Source of the DNA: Salinivirgaceae bacterium
GTDB taxonomy: Bacteria > Bacteroidota > Bacteroidia > Bacteroidales > SZUA-534
Assembly: GCA_027858735.1 (NCBI GenBank)
Contig: JAQICC010000325.1
Span: 1 to 34,732, forward strand
Length of the DNA stretch: 34,732 nt
Direction: 5' to 3'
The notes under the pieces are model-generated. The model searched no databases. It worked only from the letters and a program-made list of their open reading frames with translations, and had not been told where the DNA came from. Shown here piece by piece: positions 6,259 through 21,264 of the stretch (positions are counted from its first letter, which is position 1; each line of letters begins with the position of its first letter). The position numbers were made by a program, and so were the translations under genes.

Positions 6259-6603
6259 CTAAACCAAATATTGAAACAAGTTAGGCTTATCATTTATATA
6301 CTCATAATCAAAACCTTTATCTTTTAATCGTTGAATTAATCCGGCAAAATTCTCTTTATTCTGTAACTCAATACCTATTAAAGCTGGTTCTTTTTCACGA
6401 TTGTGTTTTTTTGAATATTCAACTAAACCACTATGGACTGAAAGTACCATAGGTTTGACTACTAATGAGACCAATAAAGTAATATCATCACCCAATCCTA
6501 AAATCTGGTTTACAAACACACCCAAAGCCCCAGCATGTCGCGGAAAACGTATAATGAAATAATGTTTTAATCCTTCATATACTTCTTCGTTATTACGAGT
6601 CAT
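6259..6603 (-). CDS. Orphan C-terminal ACT-like regulatory domain of threonine dehydratase (IlvA), with an inserted repeat
   Basis: 114 aa matching only the C-terminal regulatory domain of Bacteroidota threonine ammonia-lyase: YEGLKHYF near the start, FPRHAGAL, GDDIT, EYSKKHNRE, PALIGIEL and the terminal DKPNLFQYLV. The PLP-binding catalytic domain is absent, and the 73 bp upstream hold a terminator instead of coding DNA. Between GDDIT and EYSKK, where the family has two residues, this protein has 19. The extra residues are encoded by the 48-bp repeat at 6427-6474 plus one TAA triplet. The frame stays open through the insert. It may be a relic of a deleted ilvA or a free-standing regulatory domain acting on a catalytic subunit elsewhere. 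It follows the ilvN terminator, so expression is doubtful. Confidence 0.75.
   Translation of the reverse strand: MTRNNEEVYEGLKHYFIIRFPRHAGALGVFVNQILGLGDDITLLVSLVVKPMVLSVHSGLVEYSKKHNREKEPALIGIELQNKENFAGLIQRLKDKGFDYEYINDKPNLFQYLV
6427..6474. repeat. Short TAA-flanked repeat, copy B, inside the IlvA ACT-like domain
   Basis: A 48-bp unit between TAA at 6424-6426 and TAA at 6475-6477. It contains the hairpin ctatgg/ccatag. Removing the unit plus one TAA (51 bp) leaves the protein reading GDDIT-LV-EYSKK, which is the canonical family spacing. Copy A at 70-115 has the same flanking TAA on both sides. This supports an insertion with a 3-bp target duplication, although TAA is common in AT-rich DNA. 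Confidence 0.65.
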
Positions 6604-6676: not shown

Positions 6677-7225
6677 CTAAACTGTTACAGGATCGCGATG
6701 CTCTTTTTCAAGATTTTCAAGATACGAACTTAAATGTTCTTTTTTAAGTCTCGTAATAGCCACTCTACCTGAACGAACAAATTGCAGAACACCATAAGGT
6801 TTAAGCTGTTCAAAAAGCTCTTGCGTTTCAGCTTTATGCCCTGTTTTTTCAATTACCGTATATTCTTTTGTAAGTTCAAGTATTCGGGCATTGTATCTAC
6901 GAATTATACCCTCAATTAAATTTGTTTCGAGTAAAGACGAAGTTTCAATTTTATACATCGCAATTTCTTGATGCAAGATTTCATCCTCCGTTAGGTAAAA
7001 TGCACGAATAACATCAATTTGCTTCTCCATTTGCTTAACCAAATTTTTGGCCATCTGCTCGGTAGAGTCAACAACAATAGTAAATTTAAAAATACCTTTT
7101 AATGCTGACTCTGAAACCGTTAAACTATCAATGTTTATTTTACGTCGTGTAAATATTATGGTAATTCGGTTTAACAAACCTATGCTGTTTTCCGAAAATA
7201 TTGTTAATGTAAATTCTTGATTCAT
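6677..7225 (-). CDS. ilvN: Acetolactate synthase small (regulatory) subunit
   Basis: Regulatory subunit of acetohydroxyacid synthase, which activates the large subunit and confers valine feedback inhibition. The N-terminal ACT domain (residues 3-75) has the family pattern FTLTIFSENSIGLLNRIT followed by RRKINIDSLTVSES. The C-terminal half, residues about 85-175, carries the AHAS small-subunit domain (EIAMYKIE, YTVIEKTGHKAE, FVRSGRVAITR). Its 182 aa is normal length for the long form. It lies 11 bp after ilvB in the same direction, so the two are certainly cotranscribed, and a terminator follows. Confidence 0.96.
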   Translation of the reverse strand: MNQEFTLTIFSENSIGLLNRITIIFTRRKINIDSLTVSESALKGIFKFTIVVDSTEQMAKNLVKQMEKQIDVIRAFYLTEDEILHQEIAMYKIETSSLLETNLIEGIIRRYNARILELTKEYTVIEKTGHKAETQELFEQLKPYGVLQFVRSGRVAITRLKKEHLSSYLENLEKEHRDPVTV

Positions 7226-7236
7226 AGCTCTGAGTT

Positions 7237-8985
7237 TTATTTTTTATTTTCGTCTCCGTATAGTATATCGCTCACTGAAGCTCCGGCCGGAACCATTGGA
7301 AATACATTTCCTTTAGCCGTAACCTTAATCTCAAGAATATAAGCTCCTTCAGAATTATACATGCGTTCTATTGCATCTTTAAGGGTGCTTCTATCTAATA
7401 CGGTCTCGCCTTCAATTTTATACGAAGCCGCTAAAGCTACAAAATCAGGACTGCTAATTGGCGTATTGGAATAACGTTCTTCAAAGAATAATTCTTGCCA
7501 CTGGCGAACCATACCTAAGAAATTGTTATTCAATACAATCATTTTAACAGGTAGTTTATTATAGGCTATTGTTCCTAATTCTTGCATGGTCATTTGAAAA
7601 CCACCATCGCCCGAAATTGAAACAACTTTTTTATCAGGACACCCAAATTGAGCACCCATAGCCGCTGGCAAACCAAAACCCATAGTTCCTAATCCACCCG
7701 ATGTTACCCAAGTACGTGTGCTATTAAAATTGCAATAGCGCATAGCAAACATTTGATGCTGACCTACATCGGTACAAATAATAGCATCGCCTTTTGCACT
7801 ATCATTCAATACTTCAATAACTTCACCCATGTTTATTTTTCCGTCGGCAGGATGCAATTCCTCTTTTATAACGCGGTCATATTCAACTTTATCACATGCT
7901 TTAAACTCAGCTAGCCATTCAGGATACTGTTTTGGTTGAATATAATCTAGTATCTGTGCCAGAGTTTCTCCTACATTACCTAGAACCGGGGCATCAACCT
8001 GAATAATTTTATTTATTTCAGCTTTATCAATTTCAAAATGAATTTTTTTGGCCTGAGGTGCATACTTGGCTACAACACCTGTAACGCGATCATCAAAACG
8101 CATTCCAATTGCAATTAGCAAATCGCAGTCATTGGTTTTTATATTTGGCCCTGCATTACCATGCATACCTACGGTACCTGTATACTGAGCATGATTGTTA
8201 GGAATGGCTGACAAGCCCAGTAAGGTTGTGGCAACAGCAACACCCGATTTATTTACAAAATCAAGTAATTCTTTTTCTGCATTACCTAAGATTACCCCTT
8301 GCCCTACAACTGCCAATGGTTTTTTAGCTTCATTAATTAGCTTAGCAGCAGCCTCAATTTGTACATTATTTACTCGTGGCTCAGGTATGTAGCTACGAAT
8401 GTATTTGCATCTTTTATAGCTATAATCACATTTGTTCATCATGGCATCTTTGGTAACATCAATAACCACTGGTCCCGGACGACCTGAACAAGCAATGTAA
8501 AAAGCTTTTGCAATTGCTTCAGGAATTTCTTCTGCTTTTGTTACCTGATAATTCCATTTCGTAACAGGCATGGTAACACCTACAACATCCGTTTCTTGAA
8601 AACCGTCAGTACCTAACAATGCAGAAAATACTTGGCCTGTAATACAAACTAAAGGCGTTGAATCCATATACGCATCGGCAATACCAGTAATAAGGTTTGT
8701 TGCACCCGGACCAGAGGTTGCAAAGCAAACTCCGGGCTTTCCGGTAACCCTTGCAAATCCTTGAGCAGCATGTATTGCTCCCTGTTCGTGGCGGGTTAAT
8801 ATATGTTTTAATTTATCTTTATAGTCCATTAATTTATCGTACAGTGGCATAATGGCTCCACCCGGATATCCAAATATTGTTGAAGCTCCTTCTGTTATTA
8901 ATGATAAAAGCAAAGCATCGGAACCAGTAACATTTACTGTTTCTGTTTGAGCTACTTTTTTTTCTTCAATGGTTTGTGTTCCCAT
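7237..8985 (-). CDS. ilvB: Acetolactate synthase large (catalytic) subunit
   Basis: ThDP-dependent enzyme making 2-acetolactate from pyruvate, or 2-aceto-2-hydroxybutyrate from pyruvate and 2-oxobutyrate, the first common step of Val/Leu/Ile synthesis. The catalytic Glu is E67 in RHEQG. SGPGATN follows at 91-97. The central FAD-binding domain is about 205-350, and the ThDP/Mg motif begins GDG at 459-461 and ends NN at 487-488. W496 matches the tryptophan conserved near the herbicide site. The length of 582 aa is normal. It sits 74 bp downstream of ilvD and 11 bp upstream of ilvN. Confidence 0.97.
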   Translation of the reverse strand: MGTQTIEEKKVAQTETVNVTGSDALLLSLITEGASTIFGYPGGAIMPLYDKLMDYKDKLKHILTRHEQGAIHAAQGFARVTGKPGVCFATSGPGATNLITGIADAYMDSTPLVCITGQVFSALLGTDGFQETDVVGVTMPVTKWNYQVTKAEEIPEAIAKAFYIACSGRPGPVVIDVTKDAMMNKCDYSYKRCKYIRSYIPEPRVNNVQIEAAAKLINEAKKPLAVVGQGVILGNAEKELLDFVNKSGVAVATTLLGLSAIPNNHAQYTGTVGMHGNAGPNIKTNDCDLLIAIGMRFDDRVTGVVAKYAPQAKKIHFEIDKAEINKIIQVDAPVLGNVGETLAQILDYIQPKQYPEWLAEFKACDKVEYDRVIKEELHPADGKINMGEVIEVLNDSAKGDAIICTDVGQHQMFAMRYCNFNSTRTWVTSGGLGTMGFGLPAAMGAQFGCPDKKVVSISGDGGFQMTMQELGTIAYNKLPVKMIVLNNNFLGMVRQWQELFFEERYSNTPISSPDFVALAASYKIEGETVLDRSTLKDAIERMYNSEGAYILEIKVTAKGNVFPMVPAGASVSDILYGDENKK

Positions 8986-9059: not shown

Positions 9060-10898
9060 CTAATCAATTTCTCTAACGGCTCCTTTATCAGCAGAACTTA
9101 CAAAATAAGCATACTGCTTAAGAGCCTTGCTGACGACTCGCACACGGTTTGGTTGGTATCCTTCTTTACCTTTAGCTTCTTCAGCGTCTCGCCGCGCTAG
9201 CAACTCAGCCGCATCAACAGCTAAATTCATGCTTCTGTTAGGTATATCAATTTCAATAGTATCTCCATCTTTAACCAATGCAATTGCTCCCTTACTTGCA
9301 GCTTCAGGCGATGCATGACCAATTGATAAACCTGATGTACCTCCTGAAAAACGACCGTCGGTAATTAAAGCACAAACTTTTCCTAAACCTTTACTTTTTA
9401 AGAATGATGTTGGATAAAGCATTTCTTGCATACCCGGACCACCTTTAGGCCCTTCATAACGAATAACGACTACATCTCCCGCTTTTACCGAACCGTTTAA
9501 TATTCCTGTGCAAGCATCATCTTGCGAATCAAATACTTTTGCCGGGCCTGAAAACTTCCATACAGATTCATCAACACCGGCTGTTTTTACAATACATCCG
9601 TTTTCGGCTAAATTTCCGAAAAGTACTGCTAAACCACCATCTTTAGAGTAGGCACTTTCAACACTTCTAATACATCCGTTATCACGATCCGTATCTAAAG
9701 TTTTAAATTTAACAGAGTGCGATCCCATGGTTAAGTTTAAACCAGTGCGGGCAGGTGCTGATGAATATATGTTTTTTGCTTCATCGCCCTGTGAATCCAA
9801 AGTAACGTCGAATTGCTCTAAAGCTTGTTTTAAAGTAAGACCGTCGGCTCTTGATACTGATGTATCAAGTAACCCTCCTTTGTCAAGCTCACTTAGTATA
9901 GACATAATACCACCTGCACGGTTAACATCTTCTATGTGATATTTTGGCGTATTGGGTGATACTTTACACAAATAGGGTACTTTTCTCGATAACTCGTCCA
10001 TTTCCTTCATGGTAAAATCAACTTCAGCCTCGTTGGCAATAGCTAATAAGTGAAGTACTGTATTGGTTGAACCACCCATGGCAATATCCAAACTCATTGC
10101 GTTAAGAAATGAAGCCTTAGTTGCAATATTTCTTGGTAAAACCGAAGTGTCACCGTCTCTATAATAAGCATAGGTGCTTTTAACAATTTGTTTTGCGGCT
10201 TTTTTGAACAACTCAACACGATTCGTATGTGTAGCTACAACAGTACCATTACCTGGTAATGCCAATCCTATAGCCTCGTTTAAGCAATTCATTGAGTTTG
10301 CGGTAAACATACCCGAACATGAACCACAAGTAGGACAAGCATTTTGCTCAACAGCTTTAAGGAGTTCTGGTTGCGTTTTATCGTCGGCACCCAACACAAT
10401 GGCATCAACCAAATCGTACTTTTTACCATTCACTACACCCGCCTCCATTGGCCCGCCTGATACAAAAATTACAGGAATGTTCAAACGCATGGCGGCCATT
10501 AACATACCCGGAGTAATTTTATCGCAATTGCTAATGCAAATCATGGCATCGGCTTTATGCGCGTTACACATATACTCAACACTATCGGCAATTATTTCGC
10601 GCGAAGGAAGTGAATACAGCATACCATCGTGTCCCATGGCAATTCCATCATCAACAGCAATGGTATTAAATTCTGGAGCAAAACACCCTTCAGCTTCAAT
10701 TATTTTTTTTACTTCTTGTCCTATGTCTTTTAAATGAACATGACCTGGAACAAATTGAGTAAACGAATTAACTACGGCAATAACAGGTGCTTTAAATTGG
10801 TCTTCTTTCATTCCATTTGCTCTCCACAGTGCTCGGGCTCCTGCCATTTTAGCACCTAACTTTGTGGTATTACTTCTTAAAGGTATTTTGTAATTCAT
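9060..10898 (-). CDS. ilvD: Dihydroxy-acid dehydratase
   Basis: Iron-sulfur enzyme dehydrating 2,3-dihydroxy-isovalerate and -methylvalerate to the 2-oxo acids before the last transamination. It has 612 aa, close to E. coli IlvD. Cluster cysteines are visible as C125 in NCDK and the group C188-C191-C194 in CPTCGSC. Residues 43-55 read [13 protein letters not shown], as in the E. coli type, without the extra early Cys of the [2Fe-2S] class. Catalytic-end motifs [15 protein letters not shown] and SPEAA are present. It is the first structural gene of ilvDBN. Its ATG lies about 125 bp after the attenuator, which would make it the main target of leader control. Confidence 0.97.
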
Positions 10899-11022
10899 GT
10901 TTAATATTATTAAGTATTCTTATATTTCTATTTTTATCTATCAAAACATGCCCATTTCATAAAATATATAATTATTGCTTCGACATGTCTCAATAATTAT
11001 ATCAGGTGTGGCCTGTTTTACT

Positions 11023-11054
11023 AAAAAAGGCCCTTCATACACTGAAGAGCCTTT
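11023..11054 (-). terminator. Intrinsic terminator (attenuator) in the ilvDBN leader
   Basis: On the minus strand, AAAGGCTCTTCA (11054-11043) pairs along all 12 positions with TGAAGGGCCTTT (11037-11026) around the loop GTGTA, and is followed by TTTTTT. The single non-Watson-Crick pair is G-U on this strand but C-A on the plus strand, so the hairpin is built for the ilv transcript. It lies 21 bp after the leader-peptide stop and about 125 bp before ilvD. Confidence 0.85.
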
Positions 11055-11075
11055 GGTAAAATATTTTAATTTTAA

Positions 11076-11147
11076 CTATAACACTCCTGTTTCGTTGCCA
11101 ATATTGACAAGAACGACTGAAATGACTATGTTAAGGTTTATTATCAT
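11076..11147 (-). CDS. ilv operon leader peptide (23 aa)
   Basis: A short ORF from ATG at 11147 to TAG at 11078-11076, too short for standard gene finding. Residues 1-16 read MIINLNIVISVVLVNI and the end is GNETGVL. Thirteen of 23 residues are Ile, Val or Leu, including the run VIS-VVLV. These are exactly the amino acids made by the genes downstream. It starts about 15-20 bases after the predicted transcription start, stops 21 bp before a strand-specific intrinsic terminator, and precedes ilvD-ilvB-ilvN. By analogy with enterobacterial ilv leaders, ribosome stalling at these codons when charged tRNAs are scarce would prevent termination. I found only a weak candidate antiterminator pairing (AGGAGU near the end of the leader with GCUCUU of the terminator arm), so the exact RNA switch is unresolved. 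Confidence 0.8.
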   Translation of the reverse strand: MIINLNIVISVVLVNIGNETGVL

Positions 11148-11168
11148 TATTATTTTTAAAATGTAAAA

Positions 11169-11198
11169 CAAATTTAAGGATTATTTTTTAAGCACAAA
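11169..11198 (-). promoter_or_regulatory. Promoter of the ilvDBN operon
   Basis: On the minus strand TTTG at 11198-11195, an 18-bp spacer, and TAAATTTG at 11176-11169, a full match to the Bacteroidota -7 element TAnnTTTG. A second TTTG at 11202-11199 would give a 22-bp spacer. Transcription would start near 11162, just before the leader-peptide ATG. Confidence 0.7.
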
Positions 11199-11417: not shown

Positions 11418-12728
11418 ATGAGTGTAGATATTGGAAGAAATGATGCATGCCACTGTGGTAGCGGTAAAAAGTATAAAAAGTGTTGTCTTATTTCTGATCA
11501 GGAAAACGAAAAACTTGAGGTATTAAAAACAAAATATATAGCTGAGAATACAGACTTACCTGAGCCTTGGGATAATCCTGAGGATTGGATATCATCGGAC
11601 GATGAGGATACACCGTACAAAGATCCAAATTTGACTGATGAACAAAATGAATTGCTTGACAAATGGTGGGATGATTTTAGACTACTAAAAGATTATAAAG
11701 CACAAATAGCCCACCTTAACCTCCTTTTTGATACAATGCCAGATCTTGTTGAATATGCTGGTTTAGAGAATGAAGCAATTTTTGAATTGGTAGCACCACA
11801 TCTCAAAGATGATAAATATGATGATTTTATTGCATTCTTATTAAACTTTAAAGAACGTTACCCTGAAGCATACAAATTGGCTGATGATTACTATAATTAT
11901 TATGTTATAGTATGGTTACTTGTAAATGACAGGCAAAATGAAATACCTAATTATTTGGATATTTATATAGACAAAGGAAGCGAGAAGTTGGCTGAAGTAG
12001 TGGAATTGTTACGGTCAACAAATAATTGTAAAATTTTAATCCCTTTTTTAGAGAAAAACTATAAAGTAATTATTGAAAGTGAAGCATATTGGAATGCTTG
12101 GTTTTTAATTCAACCTCTACTCGACAATGCATGCGCTCCTTGTTTAAAACCAAATATTGCAGATCGTGATATTGCTAAGACCATTTTAAACTTGAAAAAC
12201 ATTGATTACGAATTTATTGATGAAATATTTGAACCAAGTTATTGGCAAACAATGTCGACAGAATTATTTAAACCTTTTGAACCATGGCCCAATAAAATAC
12301 CCGCTAATAAAACGGCATTTAATGAATTATTGAATAAAGTAAGCACACAATATTTGGGCTTTTTAATTTCAAAAAAAGAATTTTCAAGCAATTACTCTTT
12401 TCATTTATATCATAAAATAAACTCATTTATTTTTGAGTATTATGAGCAAAACTCGAAAAAAAGCAAATCTTTATTTAAGTTTTCAATAAAAAAAATTGAT
12501 GAGACCATAATAACACTTACAAAAAATATGATGTGGTTAAACTATATCGAGTTGCACTCCCTATTTTTAACTACTTATTACTTTATGGAATATTTGGAAT
12601 TGTGTGGCAACCTAGATTCGGAAGAAAGAACTAAAATACAACAAGAAATTTCTGAGTTGTTTAATTCAAACAGAAGAAATTTTTTAGACTACTATGAGGA
12701 GGCGTTAATAATTAAAAGCATACCGTAG
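11418..12728 (+). CDS. SEC-C motif protein with a long helical region
   Basis: 436 aa. Residues 6-23 form a SEC-C zinc-binding motif (GRNDACHCGSGKKYKKCC; ligands C11, C13, C22, C23 or a neighbour), the module also found at the SecA C-terminus and in many unrelated proteins. The rest is acidic, rich in aromatic residues and predicted almost entirely helical, consistent with helical repeats. I recognise no catalytic motif and no signal or membrane segment, so it is probably cytoplasmic. The AraC gene starts 30 bp downstream on the same strand, suggesting cotranscription. The function is unknown; the SEC-C assignment is firm, anything beyond it is not. Confidence 0.8.
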   Translation: MSVDIGRNDACHCGSGKKYKKCCLISDQENEKLEVLKTKYIAENTDLPEPWDNPEDWISSDDEDTPYKDPNLTDEQNELLDKWWDDFRLLKDYKAQIAHLNLLFDTMPDLVEYAGLENEAIFELVAPHLKDDKYDDFIAFLLNFKERYPEAYKLADDYYNYYVIVWLLVNDRQNEIPNYLDIYIDKGSEKLAEVVELLRSTNNCKILIPFLEKNYKVIIESEAYWNAWFLIQPLLDNACAPCLKPNIADRDIAKTILNLKNIDYEFIDEIFEPSYWQTMSTELFKPFEPWPNKIPANKTAFNELLNKVSTQYLGFLISKKEFSSNYSFHLYHKINSFIFEYYEQNSKKSKSLFKFSIKKIDETIITLTKNMMWLNYIELHSLFLTTYYFMEYLELCGNLDSEERTKIQQEISELFNSNRRNFLDYYEEALIIKSIP

Positions 12729-13655: not shown

Positions 13656-15431
13656 TTATTCTGGTATCTCATAGCCCTCAATTTTTGAGGTTGTTATATC
13701 AATGCCTGGCAGCACATACTCAATATCTATTAAAGGGTAGTCAATTGTTGTAATACTATTATCTTTTATTATTTCCCACAGACTTTCCTTTTGAGGAAAT
13801 GGATCGTTTGCAAAAGGATAATGGTTCTCGAAGTCAATTGCTGCTAAAGCAGTTACATAATATACCCATTGCATCCGTGTTTCTTCAACAACATATTCCT
13901 TTTCTTGAATATTTTCATCACTTAAAACTTCTTGGCTATTAAAAAATATGGCATTCAAAGGTGGGTAATCAAATTTCTTATAAATCTCAATTCTCCCAAA
14001 ACTTAAATCATCTATCGAATACATCGCCAGCTCTTTTGTATTCTCCATAATTGAAGGGACACCCCCCGTAAAACGCAGTAAACTTATGCTTTGCTTTGTT
14101 GCGTTGATATCATAGCTTTCATATAAATCATAGTATTCATAAACACCGTTGCAATATATGGGAAATGATCTTCCAATGACGACATTGTTCCTGTCAATCG
14201 TACCGAACGTTGACCTTATTAAGCTTAATGGTTCTTCGCTCTCCCATTTATCTATAAATGAATTATAGTGACTCGTGCGAAAATGGTAGGAATAAACTAC
14301 ACTTTCATCGTCAACTCCTCCTGTCAAATCTACTCGGTATATAGTTTCATTCTTTAAAAGGTTCGTAGGCATTTCATACTCGAAAAGTTGCTTGTCATTA
14401 TTGTAAACAAGATCTGAAACTTCATTTTCATTAGTTTGAATATCTTCAATTTTAACTTTATAATTATAAGTGCGTAGAAATTTAGTTAACGACCTTTCAT
14501 TAGGTATAAAGTAACCAAAATCGTATTCGTTTTTTAAAAAGTTCAGTTGTCTATATAAGGGATAAGTAACTTGAAAACTTTCATTTGTAATATTTTCGAA
14601 TCCAACTTCACTAACACGAATCTTTAAATCTTTAATTTCATAAAAACCTTCGCAATACTGCCAATTTCCAAATTCGTGCTTTACCTTCCATTTTCCAATA
14701 ACTCTGTATGTGTAATCCTTACCTTGTCCAAGATTATTAGCATATTCTAACTGTATTTGTTTATCGTTAACAAAACTATATCCAATTTCAATTTCAGTAT
14801 CATCTGATAATAATTTACATTCCAATTCATATTTATAAATGGCATCACCTCTTTTTTCATACTCCTCGTTTGGTAATTTTCGTAAATCCAGTTTTGGTTC
14901 ATAAAAAACTGAAGCAGTAAGAGAACTTTCTTCAAATTCATCCAAAGCAATAAAAGGTAATTTTGCCTTCCCATTAATTGTAATCGTTTCACTAACCGAT
15001 TCTATCAACACTGATCCAGAATCACTATATTTATTATTATCAGCATCTTCATAATACCAAGTTCCCGATACAGTTATTTCAACAAGGCCTGCTTCAGGCA
15101 AGCCTTCAATTGAAGTAACTCTCACGGAATTATCCATGAAGAAAAAATCAACAGCAATCTTTTTGTCATTAACTGCTACCGAAACACTATCATACTTAAC
15201 AAAATAACTTAACTCGATATTATTCGAAGGAAATTCTTTTCTATTTAAGTCTAATTCAAACTGGAAGTATGCATATACACTTTCTGGAATTTCGCCTAAA
15301 ACCAGTTTTACATTTTGAGATTTAATTTCTTTTTCAAAATCAGCATAATCCCATATATAATTCTCTTCCTTTTCAGTACAGCAAAAAATTAATAACGAGG
15401 AAAATAAAAGAGCATAAAACGTATATTTCAT
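13656..15431 (-). CDS. Lipoprotein of unknown function, paralogue 1 of 3
   Basis: 591 aa from the ATG at 15431. A longer frame reaches 15488, but the 19 extra residues precede a clean signal sequence, MKYTFYALLFSSLLIFCC, so the shorter start is preferred. The signal ends in a Cys-Cys pair (residues 17-18) followed by TEKEEN, an acidic stretch as in Bacteroidota surface-export signals; the residue before Cys is atypical for a lipobox. The mature part looks beta-rich, with no catalytic motif seen. Landmarks shared with the two neighbours: YxW near the N-terminus, YPLYRQLNFL at 291-300, YHFRTS at 382-387, a PPLNAI-type motif near 490, and YVLPGI near 572. It is last in the transcription order. 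Function unknown. Confidence 0.8.
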   Translation of the reverse strand: MKYTFYALLFSSLLIFCCTEKEENYIWDYADFEKEIKSQNVKLVLGEIPESVYAYFQFELDLNRKEFPSNNIELSYFVKYDSVSVAVNDKKIAVDFFFMDNSVRVTSIEGLPEAGLVEITVSGTWYYEDADNNKYSDSGSVLIESVSETITINGKAKLPFIALDEFEESSLTASVFYEPKLDLRKLPNEEYEKRGDAIYKYELECKLLSDDTEIEIGYSFVNDKQIQLEYANNLGQGKDYTYRVIGKWKVKHEFGNWQYCEGFYEIKDLKIRVSEVGFENITNESFQVTYPLYRQLNFLKNEYDFGYFIPNERSLTKFLRTYNYKVKIEDIQTNENEVSDLVYNNDKQLFEYEMPTNLLKNETIYRVDLTGGVDDESVVYSYHFRTSHYNSFIDKWESEEPLSLIRSTFGTIDRNNVVIGRSFPIYCNGVYEYYDLYESYDINATKQSISLLRFTGGVPSIMENTKELAMYSIDDLSFGRIEIYKKFDYPPLNAIFFNSQEVLSDENIQEKEYVVEETRMQWVYYVTALAAIDFENHYPFANDPFPQKESLWEIIKDNSITTIDYPLIDIEYVLPGIDITTSKIEGYEIPE

Positions 15432-15586
15432 TGTATATAAGTTTTGATTTAAATGTCTTAAAAATAGTATTTGTTTAATAAATTTCAATTCGGTACTTCA
15501 ATTACAGGGTTGGTTTACCTTATCCTATAATTAAAAAGTTTGTGGTACTTCTCCTTTGCATCATAGCAATAAGAATTATCATTAAC

Positions 15587-17374
15587 CTAATTCTCTTCAT
15601 CAACCCAACCGGGAATTACATAATTGTTAAAAGTAGTAGTTGCTATGTTTATTCCTGGTAAAACATATGAAATTTCCATGGATGGAAGTTCTATCTTTAA
15701 ACCTGTAACCTTATCTCTTATTTTTTCTTTATCAGGGTATGCTGAATTAACTCTTGCAACCACCGGGTCTAAATCCAATGCAGCCAAGGCTGTTACAAAA
15801 TAAACCCAAGTGTAAATATTGCCTAAAATATACTCTCCCCCATTTATATATTCATCTGATAAAAACAACCTATCCCCACTAAAATAAATAGCATCTAAAG
15901 GAGGATAACCAAATTTCTCATATTTATCATCTCTATTAATGGTGATATTGTCAATCGAATACAGAGCTAATTCTGAAGTTCCTTGCATTATTTCAGGAAT
16001 TTCAGAACTAAATTGAATTAATGGAAATTCACTCGACATTAAAGTTGAACTATTATTTTCGTACCGATCCATTTCCTCGTTTACTGGAAAAACATTCATG
16101 CCAAAAGAATATCCAATAATTAAACTCTCACCCGGACGTAATTGAGACATGCTCCACATATTGCTATAGGAGCTTAGCAACCCCTCTCCATTCCATTTTT
16201 CAGTGAAGGTATTGTAATAACTTGTTCTAAAATGATAGTCATATATTGACTCATCTTCGTTTTCAGAATTAAATAAACTTAGCTTATAGATTATTTCGTT
16301 TTTTAAAAATTCGGTCGGCAAATCATATTCAAATGAATTATTATTTTCATTGTACTTTATTATTGCATTTTCACTTTCATTATTAATTATATCGTATATG
16401 GTTACAAATAAATCATTGTTAGTTAAATACTTAGCAAGCACCCTATCCTTAGGCAAAAAATAACCTTTATTGTACTCATCTTTTAAAAAGTGGAATTGTC
16501 TGCTAATTGGATAGGTAGCCAAAAAACTTCCGCTAGTTATTTCCGGAACTGAGGCCTCAACAGAAATTATTTCTTGCTCTAATATTTCATCATAACCTTG
16601 GCATGATTGCCATAATCCACGTGAATCTTGTCTAAACCATTTAGCAATAACACCAAACTGATACTTCTGATCTAACTCCAAGCTGCCATTGCACATTAAC
16701 TGAATTACATTGTGTTCTAAAGATTTGTATGTTAAATCAATCGATTGGTTATTATGTTTTAAATAGTATTCAAGTGCATACTTGTACCTTATGTTCTCCT
16801 TTTTATATTCAATATCTGGTACATACCTTAAGTTTACTATGGGTTCGTAATAAATTGAATTTGTTTGCTCGTTTTCTTCAAAACCTTTAAAAGCTTCAAT
16901 TGGTAATTTAGAATTTGTATGCAACTTTATTGTTTGACTTACTGGCTCAATATATACTGGATTTCCATCAGTATATTTTTGCTCTTGCCGGTCTCTATAA
17001 AACCAACTACCCCAAATAGTCAATTCTAAATCTCCAGTCTCATAAATTGCTTCACTGGATGTAATAATAACCGAATCGTTACGAAAGCTATATTCTATTT
17101 TCAATTTTTTAGTATTGACCTCAGCTATTACACTATCGTATTCAATGTTATATAAAAGATCTTTGTCGTCATTTAAGTACTTCGTTTCATTTAACGCTAG
17201 TTCAAAATTGAAATAAGCATAAACATCCGAATTTACTTCATCCTTTACCAGATTTATATTTTTTGATTTTATTTCTGTCGAAAATTGCTCATATTCCCAA
17301 ACATTAAGGTCTTCCTTTTTAGAACAACATACAAAAACAACCATTAATATCGCTATATATTTTCTCATTATCAA
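15587..17374 (-). CDS. Lipoprotein of unknown function, paralogue 2 of 3
   Basis: 595 aa; an ATG two codons later (17368) is an equally good start. Signal sequence with a Cys-Cys pair at 16-17, then SKKED. The same family landmarks occur in order: VWEYEQF, YYEPIVNLRYVP, ISRQFHFLKDEYNKGYF, YHFRTSYYNTFTEKW, FGYPPLDAIYF, and the end YVLPGINIATTTFNNY. The C-terminal motif is nearly identical in all three proteins while the middle diverges, as expected after old tandem duplication. It is 155 bp from paralogue 1; both upstream gaps contain a similar ggtac...aattacag stretch. No promoter match was found in the gap, so it is likely cotranscribed from paralogue 3. I do not recognise the family. Confidence 0.8.
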   Translation of the reverse strand: MIMRKYIAILMVVFVCCSKKEDLNVWEYEQFSTEIKSKNINLVKDEVNSDVYAYFNFELALNETKYLNDDKDLLYNIEYDSVIAEVNTKKLKIEYSFRNDSVIITSSEAIYETGDLELTIWGSWFYRDRQEQKYTDGNPVYIEPVSQTIKLHTNSKLPIEAFKGFEENEQTNSIYYEPIVNLRYVPDIEYKKENIRYKYALEYYLKHNNQSIDLTYKSLEHNVIQLMCNGSLELDQKYQFGVIAKWFRQDSRGLWQSCQGYDEILEQEIISVEASVPEITSGSFLATYPISRQFHFLKDEYNKGYFLPKDRVLAKYLTNNDLFVTIYDIINNESENAIIKYNENNNSFEYDLPTEFLKNEIIYKLSLFNSENEDESIYDYHFRTSYYNTFTEKWNGEGLLSSYSNMWSMSQLRPGESLIIGYSFGMNVFPVNEEMDRYENNSSTLMSSEFPLIQFSSEIPEIMQGTSELALYSIDNITINRDDKYEKFGYPPLDAIYFSGDRLFLSDEYINGGEYILGNIYTWVYFVTALAALDLDPVVARVNSAYPDKEKIRDKVTGLKIELPSMEISYVLPGINIATTTFNNYVIPGWVDEEN

Positions 17375-17451
17375 TTAATTATGTACTAAAGGTTTTAATT
17401 AAAGGTACAATTACAGTATCTCATCAGCTTTAAATGTAGTAAGGACAATTT

Positions 17452-19212
17452 TTATCTTACCTCATAATTCTCAAAAGTTGTGGTGGCAACATTTATACCC
17501 GGTAAAACATAGGAAATATCTATTAGTGGAAATTCAAATGCATTTCCACCCACCCCAAAATTAATATTCAAATCATCAAATGAATCTAATGCAATTCCTG
17601 CCTTCGATTTGTTATTTTCATAATCCTGAAACATCTGACCTATCACATTCCATGTCCAATTATGACCAAAATCAATAAACTCATATGGTTCCCCATTAAT
17701 ATGACCATCCGATAAAAAGAATGGAGTATTACAAAACTGAATTGCATCAATAGGAGGTAAACCAAACTTTTGATCATTCGCATCTCTGTCTATAATCAAA
17801 TTTCTAACAAAATAAATTTGATATTGCTTTGTTTCTTTCCATTCTTCGGGTATTTGCGATTTAAATTGAATTAATGGTAATTGGGTTGCCACATCACCGC
17901 ATGCAATACTTTCATAGCCATCCATTCTTTCATTTACAGGCCAAACATTAATTCTAATACCAGTTGATCCTGGAACACCCCAGGTGCCACCTTCAGTTAG
18001 TAACTCTTCCTTTATCCATTTTTCTTCAAATGAACGATACATGCTTGTTCTAAAATGATAATTGTATACAGCCTTCTCGTTAGAATCAATAAAAAAAGAA
18101 ACTGAATAAATATGCTCAAGTTCTAAATAATCATCAGGAATATCGTATTCAAATACATCAAGTTGATTATTATAGTTTGCGTTCATTGTTATTGAATCGC
18201 TAGATTCAATGTCGGAAAACTTAACATAAAAGGTTTGTTCTGAGAAATATTTAACCAATTCCCTGTCTGAAGGTCTAAAATATCCTTTAGAATACTCATC
18301 AATTAAAAAATTACATTGCCTATATAAAGGATAGGTAACATCAAAATTTTGATTGGTTAAATCTAAATCAATAATCGGCATAGTTGTAAACTCCTTTTCA
18401 ATGGTTTCCACATAATCCTCGCAAAGTATCCAATCGTCAAACATATGTTTAACAAACCAATTAGCATTAACTTTACAGGTATACTTGCTATTTAACTCTA
18501 ATGATCCCTCATAGGTCAGATAAACCAAGCTATCAGTAACAACTTCCGTTAATTGCAACTCCTCTCCATTCTCACGTTTCAACAAATATTCAAGTTCAAA
18601 TTTATACTTGTCATTGTATCCATACCTTGGGTGACTAAAAATTTCATTGGGCTTGTAATCAATTCTAAATTGCGGAACAAAATATATCGTATTATCATAT
18701 TTTGCATCCTTAAATGAACTTAAGGTTTCTAATACTTGAATATTTTGTACATTAATTTGTATCTCTTCTTTTTCAATACCAAAAAACATCTCATCACCAT
18801 TAGTATAATCTGAGCCTTCTTTATCTTTATAATACCATGATGCCCATAGTGTAACCTTTAAAGTACTACCTTTTGTAAATTTATTTTTAGAATAAAGAAA
18901 AGCAGAGTCCTGGTCTTGTATGTTGTAATTCACAAGTATCTGGTTATCATTTTCATGAACTGTAACGCTATCGTAATACAAAAAATAACTTACTGGTTCA
19001 ACACGGCTATACGTCCTCCTTAATTCTTGATTTAAATCTAGAGCAATCTGACTATATTCATACACCCTTTTCGATGCTACATCCAAAATAAAATCATGAA
19101 CTCCTACTTCTATTTTCTGAGCAAAATCATCATCTTCCCATATATATGTTTCGTCCTCTTTACAATTACTAAATACAGTTATTGTGATAAGTACAATCCA
19201 GAAATATTTCAT
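17452..19212 (-). CDS. Lipoprotein of unknown function, paralogue 3 of 3
   Basis: 586 aa. Signal sequence MKYFWIVLITITVFSNC with the lipid-attachment Cys at 17, followed by KEDETY, an acidic export-type stretch. Shared landmarks: YIWEDDDF, YPLYRQCNFLIDEYSKGYF, YHFRTSMYRSFEEKW, FGLPPIDAIQF, and YVLPGINVATTTFENY at the end. It is first in the direction of transcription and has a good promoter at 19248-19277, so it probably leads a three-gene operon. No enzyme, SusD or TonB feature is recognisable. An outer-membrane or surface structural or binding role is a guess from the signal only. Confidence 0.8.
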   Translation of the reverse strand: MKYFWIVLITITVFSNCKEDETYIWEDDDFAQKIEVGVHDFILDVASKRVYEYSQIALDLNQELRRTYSRVEPVSYFLYYDSVTVHENDNQILVNYNIQDQDSAFLYSKNKFTKGSTLKVTLWASWYYKDKEGSDYTNGDEMFFGIEKEEIQINVQNIQVLETLSSFKDAKYDNTIYFVPQFRIDYKPNEIFSHPRYGYNDKYKFELEYLLKRENGEELQLTEVVTDSLVYLTYEGSLELNSKYTCKVNANWFVKHMFDDWILCEDYVETIEKEFTTMPIIDLDLTNQNFDVTYPLYRQCNFLIDEYSKGYFRPSDRELVKYFSEQTFYVKFSDIESSDSITMNANYNNQLDVFEYDIPDDYLELEHIYSVSFFIDSNEKAVYNYHFRTSMYRSFEEKWIKEELLTEGGTWGVPGSTGIRINVWPVNERMDGYESIACGDVATQLPLIQFKSQIPEEWKETKQYQIYFVRNLIIDRDANDQKFGLPPIDAIQFCNTPFFLSDGHINGEPYEFIDFGHNWTWNVIGQMFQDYENNKSKAGIALDSFDDLNINFGVGGNAFEFPLIDISYVLPGINVATTTFENYEVR

Positions 19213-19788: not shown

Positions 19789-21264
19789 ATGGCAAATTAT
19801 TTTAATTCACTTCCATTACGTCTTCAGTTAGAAGAGTTAGGAAAATGCGATTTCATGGATGAATCAGAATTCGCTGACGGAGTACAAAAACTTACAGGTA
19901 AAAAAATCGTTATTCTTGGTTGTGGAGCTCAAGGGCTTGCTCAAGGTTTAAACATGCGCGATAGCGGTCTTGACATATCTTACGCAATTCGCCAAGAGGA
20001 AATTGACGAGAAACAAGTTTCATATACCAATGCTATTGAAAACAATTTTGAAGTAGGTACTTTCGAAGCTATGATTCCTCAAGCAGATTTAGTTTTAAAC
20101 CTTACTCCCGATAAATATCATACTCCTGTAGTATCAAAAACAGTTCCTTTAATGAAAAAAGGTGCTTGTCTTTCTTACTCACACGGTTTTAACATTGTTG
20201 AAGAAGGAATGCAAATTCGTGAAGACATTACGGTTATCATGGTTGCTCCGAAGTCTCCAGCTTCTGAGGTTCGTGCTGAATACTTGCGCGGATTTGGTGT
20301 ACCTACCCTAATTGCTGTTCACCGCGAAAACGACCCTAATGGCGACGGATTAGAAATTGCTAAAGCATATTGCGTTGGAACTGGTGGTCATAAAGCCGGC
20401 GTTTTACTATCAAGCTATGTTGCTGAAGTAAAATCGGATCTTATGGGTGAGCAAACCATTCTTTGTGGTGTATTGCAAACAGGTTCAATTCTTAGCTTTA
20501 ACAAAATGGTTGAAAAAGGAATTGACAAAGGTTATGCTTCGAAATTAATTCAATACGGTTGGGAAGTTATTACTGAAGCATTAAAACTTGGTGGTATTAC
20601 CAACATGATGGATCGTTTATCGAATCCTGCAAAAGTTAAAGCTTTTGAATTAGCCGAAGAATTAAAATCAATTATGCGCCCATTGTTCGAAAAGCATATG
20701 GACGACATTATAGACGGAACTTTCTCATCAACTATGATGGAAGACTGGGCTAATAGCGATAAGAATCTTTTAGCTTGGAGAGCTGCAACAGGCGAAACTG
20801 ATTTTGAAAAAACGCCGGCCAGAGATGTTGAAATTTCAGAACAAGAATACTTCGATAATGGTGTTTTATTAGTTGCTTTTGTTAAGTCGGGTGTTGAGTT
20901 AGCATTTGAAGTAATGACAGAAAGTGGAATTAAAGAAGAATCGGCTTACTACGAATCGCTTCACGAAACTCCACTTATTGCTAACACTATTGCTAAGAAA
21001 AAACTATTTGAAATGAATCGTGTAATTTCTGATACTGCTGAGTACGGATGTTACTTGTTCGACCATGCTTGCAAGCCTTTATTGGCTGATTTTATGTCCA
21101 ACATTGACACCAATGTTATTGGTAAAAACTATAATGAAGGTATAGGAGCCGGCGTTGATAACAAATTATTAATTGCTATAAACGACGAAATTCGCAATCA
21201 CTCTGTTGAATACATTGGTGAAGAATTACGTTCTGCAATGACTTCAATGGAATCAATCCTCTAA
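19789..21264 (+). CDS. ilvC: Ketol-acid reductoisomerase (class II, long form)
   Basis: NADPH- and Mg-dependent isomeroreductase converting acetolactate and acetohydroxybutyrate to the dihydroxy acids that IlvD uses. The Rossmann motif GCGAQG is at 44-49, with the cofactor-specificity loop after YAIRQ. The 491-aa length with two C-terminal knotted domains is the E. coli-like class II form ([20 protein letters not shown], then a repeat of the domain after about residue 350). It is separated from ilvDBN by 8.9 kb and on the opposite strand, so it has its own promoter and terminator. Many Bacteroidota keep ilvC next to ilvDBN, so the accessory region between them may be a later insertion or rearrangement. 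Confidence 0.97.

Follow-up and report, generated by a model that had tools for sequence, protein, structure and literature searches.

A putative Ile/Val/Leu-responsive transcription attenuator upstream of ilvDBN in a Salinivirgaceae bacterium and in related Bacteroidota

The region upstream of ilvD raises the question of what a short ORF rich in Ile, Val and Leu codons, placed between a promoter and a terminator-like hairpin, might do for the genes behind it. In enterobacteria, transcription attenuators with leader peptides are known for ilv (ilvGMEDA and ilvBN), leu, trp and his. The analysis of the window, that is, the whole 34,732-nt stretch of DNA, together with related loci points to a ribosome-mediated transcription attenuator of ilvD-ilvB-ilvN sensing charged Ile-, Val- and Leu-tRNA, a reading to which we assign a probability of about 0.9. 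The operon downstream of this element is the pathway for the very amino acids that would be sensed (Table 1).

Table 1. Positions of the putative attenuator elements and of the downstream genes in the window
Feature	Positions	Strand	Basis or remark
-33 box TTTG, Bacteroidetes-type promoter	11195..11198	-	sequence
-7 box TAAATTTG	11169..11176	-	TAnnTTTG-type; 18 nt between TTTG and box
Leader ORF MIINLNIVISVVLVNIGNETGVL	11076..11147	-	23 codons, 13 I/L/V; stop TAG 11078-11076
R1, leader codons 5-10	11119..11134	-	1:2 protector with R2/stop region; fold, codon permutation
R2, antiterminator strand CAGGAGTGTTA	11079..11089	-	immediately 5' of leader stop codon
R3, terminator 5' arm AAAGGCTCTTCA	11043..11054	-	partners R2 or R4
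R4, terminator 3' arm TGAAGGGCCTTT	11026..11037	-	sequence and fold
Terminator six-T tract	11023..11028	-	three T's common to stem
ilvD, dihydroxy-acid dehydratase, proposed regulated gene	9060..10898	-	NF009103 and TIGR00110 above cut-off
ilvB, acetolactate synthase large subunit	7237..8985	-	TIGR00118 above cut-off
ilvN, acetolactate synthase small subunit	6677..7225	-	TIGR00119 above cut-off

The consensus promoter claimed in an earlier note on this DNA was located as TTTG-N18-TAAATTTG and is of the Bacteroidetes type; its TTTG matches the Bacteroidetes -33 consensus. A 21-nt spacer separates the -7 box from the leader ATG at 11147 (minus strand), the start context of which is A-rich, with no obvious Shine-Dalgarno site. 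A TAnnTTTG sequence within 70 nt of the leader ATG was present at 60 of 70 loci, the window included, compared with 3.6 expected from mononucleotide shuffles. The same -7 consensus is also given in the available text of PMC9723704. A generic sigma-70/terminator scan returned 11 sigma-70-like sites versus 5.1 expected, and neither the terminator hairpin nor the TAAATTTG promoter was among its matches.

The leader peptide was found as the earlier note had described it. Among 5000 dinucleotide shuffles of the 170-nt local stretch, 11 yielded an ATG ORF of at least 15 aa with at least nine I/L/V per 12 residues. The terminator hairpin consists of 12 pairs with the loop at 11042-11038 (minus strand), and a T-run follows it 3' on the ilv strand only. 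The previous description of a 12-bp hairpin and then six T's held for the pairs and failed for a separate T tract, as the structure is either 9 bp with six T's or 12 bp with three. The claimed strand-specificity was borne out, the single wobble being U-G in the ilv RNA and a mismatch if read from the other strand. The fold of 11175-11022 had a z value of -4.5, and none of 200 shuffles was equally stable. The upstream gene (11418-12728, plus strand) is divergent from the ilv operon; therefore, the hairpin belongs to the ilv 5' untranslated region and cannot end an upstream gene of the same strand.

Between the terminator and ilvD, the window carries an AT-rich inverted repeat, ATATAATTATTG / CAATAATTATAT (11002-10966, minus strand), and the spacer is longer than in the nearest relatives. 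The AT-rich stretch 10890-11025 was considered as a mobile repeat and rejected, since it is single-copy in the genome. In addition, the sigma-70/terminator scan listed one short hairpin resembling a terminator, its tail rich in T, at 11003-11015 on the plus strand, opposite to ilv (0.1 such sites expected).

For comparison, the best 80 of at least 596 IlvD loci from named genomes were used, along with genomes of the same family and order. The loci were chosen by IlvD similarity and are not independent, and the percentages describe the sample, not the phylum. At no fewer than 69 of the 92 distinct Bacteroidota loci with at least 250 nt upstream of the gene (window included), ilvD was preceded by an ATG leader rich in I/L/V and then a mapped terminator; none of the 22 loci bearing names of other phyla had this module. 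Named loci with the module include L008 (Marinifilum), L031 (Bacteroides graminisolvens) and L039 (Phocaeicola faecalis). By the same method, 21 of the 92 Bacteroidota loci, several Prevotella-labelled ones among them, gave no module. The 23 loci scored without the module also include L066 and L090, in which the leader is present and which had been dropped earlier as duplicates; among the remaining 21, L024 has a leader without ATG and L115 a leader without terminator. A fixed detector found the module at 71 of 116 ilvD upstream regions (all phyla, duplicates kept) and at none of the 275 other long ORFs of the same loci, three of which were preceded by a leader-like ORF alone. Twenty further order-level loci, some of which may duplicate species of the named-genome set, yielded the leader in 17 cases and the leader with the terminator in 16. 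The wider phylum sample contained a short leader and terminator in 5 of 39 loci (L164, L167, L172, L179 and L181), the leader of L179 starting with TTG approximately 300 nt upstream of ilvD.

In the nearest relatives, L082 and L083, the gene-proximal leaders have exactly 23 codons; those of the window (L001) and L082 differ at eight third, three first and five second codon positions. The 72 leaders taken together are 15 to 32 aa long, with 56% I/L/V, and the listed sequences are otherwise widely different between groups. Such strongly hydrophobic peptides might suggest a small hydrophobic (membrane) protein, with the terminator merely setting the ratio of small-protein to enzyme transcripts. 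However, the variable length and the divergence of the sequences beyond I/L/V richness do not favor a conserved product, the tie of ORF and terminator to ilvD (0/275 at other genes) is not expected for one, and both the covariation of the R1:R2 and R2:R3 complementarity and the writing of Val with an otherwise less used codon, described below, speak against this explanation, which we consider very improbable.

The earlier note had not clearly found an antiterminator for the proposed attenuator. By comparison of the loci it could be placed: R2 can pair with R3, and the two strands covary in relatives. R3 and its best upstream partner R2 were mapped in 72 of the 75 leader-bearing loci, window included; the mapping method yielded no terminator in L010, L079 and L115. 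In 69 of the 72, R2 is wholly or partly inside an interval that runs from approximately 16 nt upstream to 12 nt downstream of the leader stop, and in 40 it includes a base of the stop codon. Examples of the pairing are TGAGAAAGGTA with AGCCTTTCTC in L121, AGGAAGGGCTG with GGCCCTTCC in L093, AAGAATGGTT with GGCCATTCT in L100, and AGGAGAGCTA with AGGCTCTTCAT in L082. The mean R2:R3 energy was -13.1 kcal/mol for the strands of the same locus versus -10.0 kcal/mol for swapped ones (72 loci, window included). No permutation among 20,000 reached the observed sum for the 72 sequences, and the same was true of the 67 distinct types and of 20 representatives less than 60% identical.

In the window itself, a G-G mismatch divides R2:R3 into six and two pairs, two of these being wobbles; at -7.8 kcal/mol the duplex is the fifth weakest of the 72, and 9.6% of shuffles of the R2 zone pair as strongly. 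The sister locus L082 has eight continuous pairs at -12.8 kcal/mol. Taken by itself, the window pairing would not be convincing; over the loci as a set, the antiterminator excludes the terminator and covaries, the signal in the window being weak. The comparison of relatives that the earlier note had proposed as a check was thus in its favor, and the interpretation held up because relatives carry a conserved leader ORF, a terminator and compensatory changes.

In the free leader RNA of the window, R2 was predicted to fold onto the R1 codons. Permutation of the leader codons gave a median z of -1.3 (n = 72), with -2.5 for the window and -5.2 for L093; the 1:2 signal was uneven, z being -1 or higher in 31 of the 72 and above zero in 17 of those. 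Own R1:R2 partners outperformed swapped ones, as 0 of 20,000 permutations (72 sequences) and 2 of 20,000 (20 representatives) did as well. According to these predictions, all three classical pairings are supported across the set, 1:2 less evenly than the others.

The effect of a ribosome was modeled by masking a footprint of generally known size, which extends roughly 16 nt upstream and 14 nt downstream from the first base of the A-site codon. Among the 72 free RNAs, 1:2 was predicted in 69 and 3:4 in all. With the ribosome stalled in the I/L/V run and the polymerase just past R3, 2:3 formed in 58 and was absent in 14. Placing the ribosome at the stop codon left 2:3 in five of the 72 before R4 had been made and in none afterwards, when 3:4 formed in every case. 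For a stalled ribosome with R4 already made, equilibrium folding kept 2:3 in 17 loci and gave the terminator in 55. For the free RNA, for a stalled ribosome before R4 is made and for a ribosome at the stop codon, the window matched the predictions; stalled with R4 made, it lost 2:3 at equilibrium. In most loci, equilibrium folding favors the terminator as soon as R4 is available, even when the ribosome is stalled; the choice must therefore be kinetic and fall before R4 is made. The trp attenuator is likewise decided before the 3' arm of its terminator is made.

Alternative RNA structures would equally be expected if the terminator were under a ligand- or protein-binding, riboswitch-like RNA and the leader ORF were incidental, and ppGpp-riboswitch control of ilvB occurs in some bacteria according to the available text of PMC10272879. 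A search with Rfam 15 gave no match in the window at gathering scores and so no leader-family membership, and at a relaxed threshold over the window leader it gave two chance-level matches, both on the plus strand. No conserved unpaired core was seen by eye in 22 leaders, in which the codon content beside exchangeable arms is what recurs. This argues against a riboswitch-like element, which we regard as highly unlikely.

What sequence and comparison establish is a conserved leader, a terminator and pairings that exclude one another. From these we infer that in the cell the leader would be translated, that ribosomes would stall on uncharged tRNA and that transcription would terminate at 11023. 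With ample charged tRNA, the ribosome at the leader stop would cover R2, R3 would pair with R4, and transcription would stop at about 11023. When charged tRNA is scarce, the ribosome would wait on an Ile, Leu or Val codon within R1 and leave R2 free; R2 would then capture R3 once it is made, R4 would be left without a partner, and the polymerase would continue into ilvD. If the leader were not translated, R1 would pair with R2 and the terminator would form by default. The classical layout of ilv attenuation recognized in the earlier note, now with leader, terminator, 2:3 and 1:2 all present, suggests this mode of regulation.

Codon choice in the leaders differs from that in genes for Val. GTC makes up 2% of Val codons in 13 genes of the window versus 51% in the 72 leaders, and three of the five Val codons of the window leader. 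Its share was higher in the leader than in the genes of the same locus in 43 of the 47 loci where counts allowed the comparison; genes averaged 4% in the 9 AT-rich loci, compared with 20% in the other 38. The common Ile codon ATT has the same frequency in leaders as in genes. The GTC excess might make the leader more responsive to Val-tRNA charging, or it might favor the pairing of R1. The same figures for GTC would be in line with a ribosome stalling on the nascent peptide or on rare GTC codons, as a general translation sensor, and not on uncharged BCAA tRNA; GTC within R1 may also aid the 1:2 pairing. Against such a sensor, no arrest-like motif was seen by eye among the 72 leaders, which combine all three pathway products, Ile, Val and Leu, and ATT is no rarer in them than elsewhere, so that we give this possibility very slim odds compared with attenuation by BCAA tRNA charging.

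Other BCAA genes of the genome were also inspected. At the end of the ilvDBN cluster (6259-6603, minus strand), the C-terminal regulatory domain of threonine dehydratase (PF00585) stands by itself, with a length of 114 aa. In three relatives (L198, L201 and L203), this domain is the end of a 424-462 aa open frame, a whole ilvA; in relatives L199, L200 and L202 it had no match. The best match to the catalytic domain in the genome (C404) ends at its own stop codon, without the regulatory domain. The ilvC gene (19789-21264, plus strand) is apart from ilvDBN on the other strand, and a search of 576 nt upstream of it revealed neither an I/L/V-rich ATG leader nor a terminator. Likewise, leuA (L186) of the same genome had no I/L/V-rich ATG leader. 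Elsewhere in the window, at 13656-19212 (minus strand), there are three adjacent long ORFs of 610, 595 and 586 aa that gave no Pfam matches up to E = 0.001.

Some relatives carry the attenuator twice. Of ten loci with a possible second leader, five (L083, L086, L008, L027 and L030) had two complete modules of leader, R2 and terminator in tandem before ilvD; L083 and L086 belong to the same family as the window organism, and the second module of L030 has a weak R2:R3 (-7.9 kcal/mol). No second attenuator was seen upstream in the window, which has one leader with at least eight I/L/V in 12 residues. The ORF at -339 was considered as a second leader and rejected; it starts with TTG, and no terminator was detected after it by a finder that tried even stem lengths only. 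For mgtCBR, the title of PMC3641672 points to a tandem arrangement.

A different type of ilvD leader was observed in other classes of the phylum (L150-L161 and L163). These leaders are mostly about 50-59 aa long with a C-terminus rich in Ile, Leu, Val and Gly; in several, the inverted repeat GGTCAAYCCC ... GGGGTTGACC comes after the ORF, and a clear poly-T terminator is mostly lacking. Both patterns in their strict form occurred in 6 of 39 loci (L145-L183) and in none of 124 others. For this type, no Rfam match up to E = 1 was obtained in the 11 loci tested. In 15 wider-phylum loci, Rfam gave four matches below threshold; each was to Phe_leader, with 26-34 bits (gathering score 55) and E no lower than 0.017. 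One match each in L164, L167 and L172 coincides with the ilvD leader module and has its orientation; the fourth, in L172 on the plus strand, does not. The three may reflect a shared attenuator layout; membership in Phe_leader was not accepted at 26-34 bits against a gathering score of 55.

The proposed element resembles enterobacterial attenuators in having a leader ORF rich in codons for the product, 1:2, 2:3 and 3:4 pairings and a terminator before the first gene, and it resembles the enterobacterial ilv systems in its multivalent Ile/Val/Leu leader. It differs from them in the Bacteroidetes promoter, the A-rich start context where no Shine-Dalgarno site is obvious, the position of R2 at or across the leader stop in most mapped loci, the lack of an Rfam match in the window, the proposed control of ilvDBN and the tandem copies in some relatives. 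It is reasonably likely, though well short of the confidence given to the attenuator itself, that the ilv leaders of Bacteroidota form an undescribed attenuator family, in which R2 at or on the leader stop makes the terminating ribosome the off switch, Val is written with GTC, less used in the genes of these loci, and the module is doubled in several lineages.

Within the phylum, strong clues in the available text of PMC9723704 suggested leader-peptide attenuation upstream of amino-acid operons in Flavobacterium psychrophilum, with transcribed 5' regions seen in that organism. The proposed mechanism is the same; the conserved structured elements listed there include those of pheA and hisG, and ilv has no occurrence in the main text. 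In addition, leader-like short ORFs in Bacteroides thetaiotaomicron are mentioned in the available part of PMC7366714. In the main text of PMC10272879, where the string Bacteroid has no occurrence, the ilvB-II, ilvB-OMG and ilvB motifs likewise place an upstream ORF rich in BCAAs ahead of a BCAA gene, and ilvB-II has a terminator as well. However, ilvB-II belongs to Corynebacterium, the ilvB motif to Leptospira and ilvB-OMG to various phyla, its peptides being rich in Thr besides BCAAs. For Actinobacteria, the accessible portion of PMC1262725 reports predicted ilvB leader peptides, and replacement of the candidate codons in Streptomyces was without effect there, which cautions that a layout of this kind may not hold up at the bench. 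No report of an ilvD attenuator in Bacteroidota was present among the matches listed for the open-access literature, a scope outside which the work of Lopatovskaya et al. 2010 falls. That work is said to be a survey of attenuation across phyla and may already contain some of these leaders. As for the statement in the earlier note that regulation is little known in this phylum, the ilvD case is new among those matches, but leader-peptide attenuation had been suggested before (PMC9723704, available text). Judged from its sequence, the putative attenuator is a further case of a known mechanism, already suggested in Flavobacterium in the same source.

Attenuation by a leader peptide requires early loading of the ribosome and its tracking of the polymerase. 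According to the available texts of PMC6847099 and PMC9976891, Shine-Dalgarno pairing is not used in Bacteroidota, and the tightness of ribosome-polymerase coupling in these bacteria is therefore of interest. A ready reporter for this coupling is offered by the ilv attenuator, which is conserved, has covarying strands and belongs to an element group without an Rfam 15 match in the window; it would also mark a point of control over BCAA synthesis in Bacteroidota of the gut and the environment. If the reading is true, the spread of the attenuator would mean that the first ribosome follows the polymerase closely enough for classical attenuation, without Shine-Dalgarno pairing.
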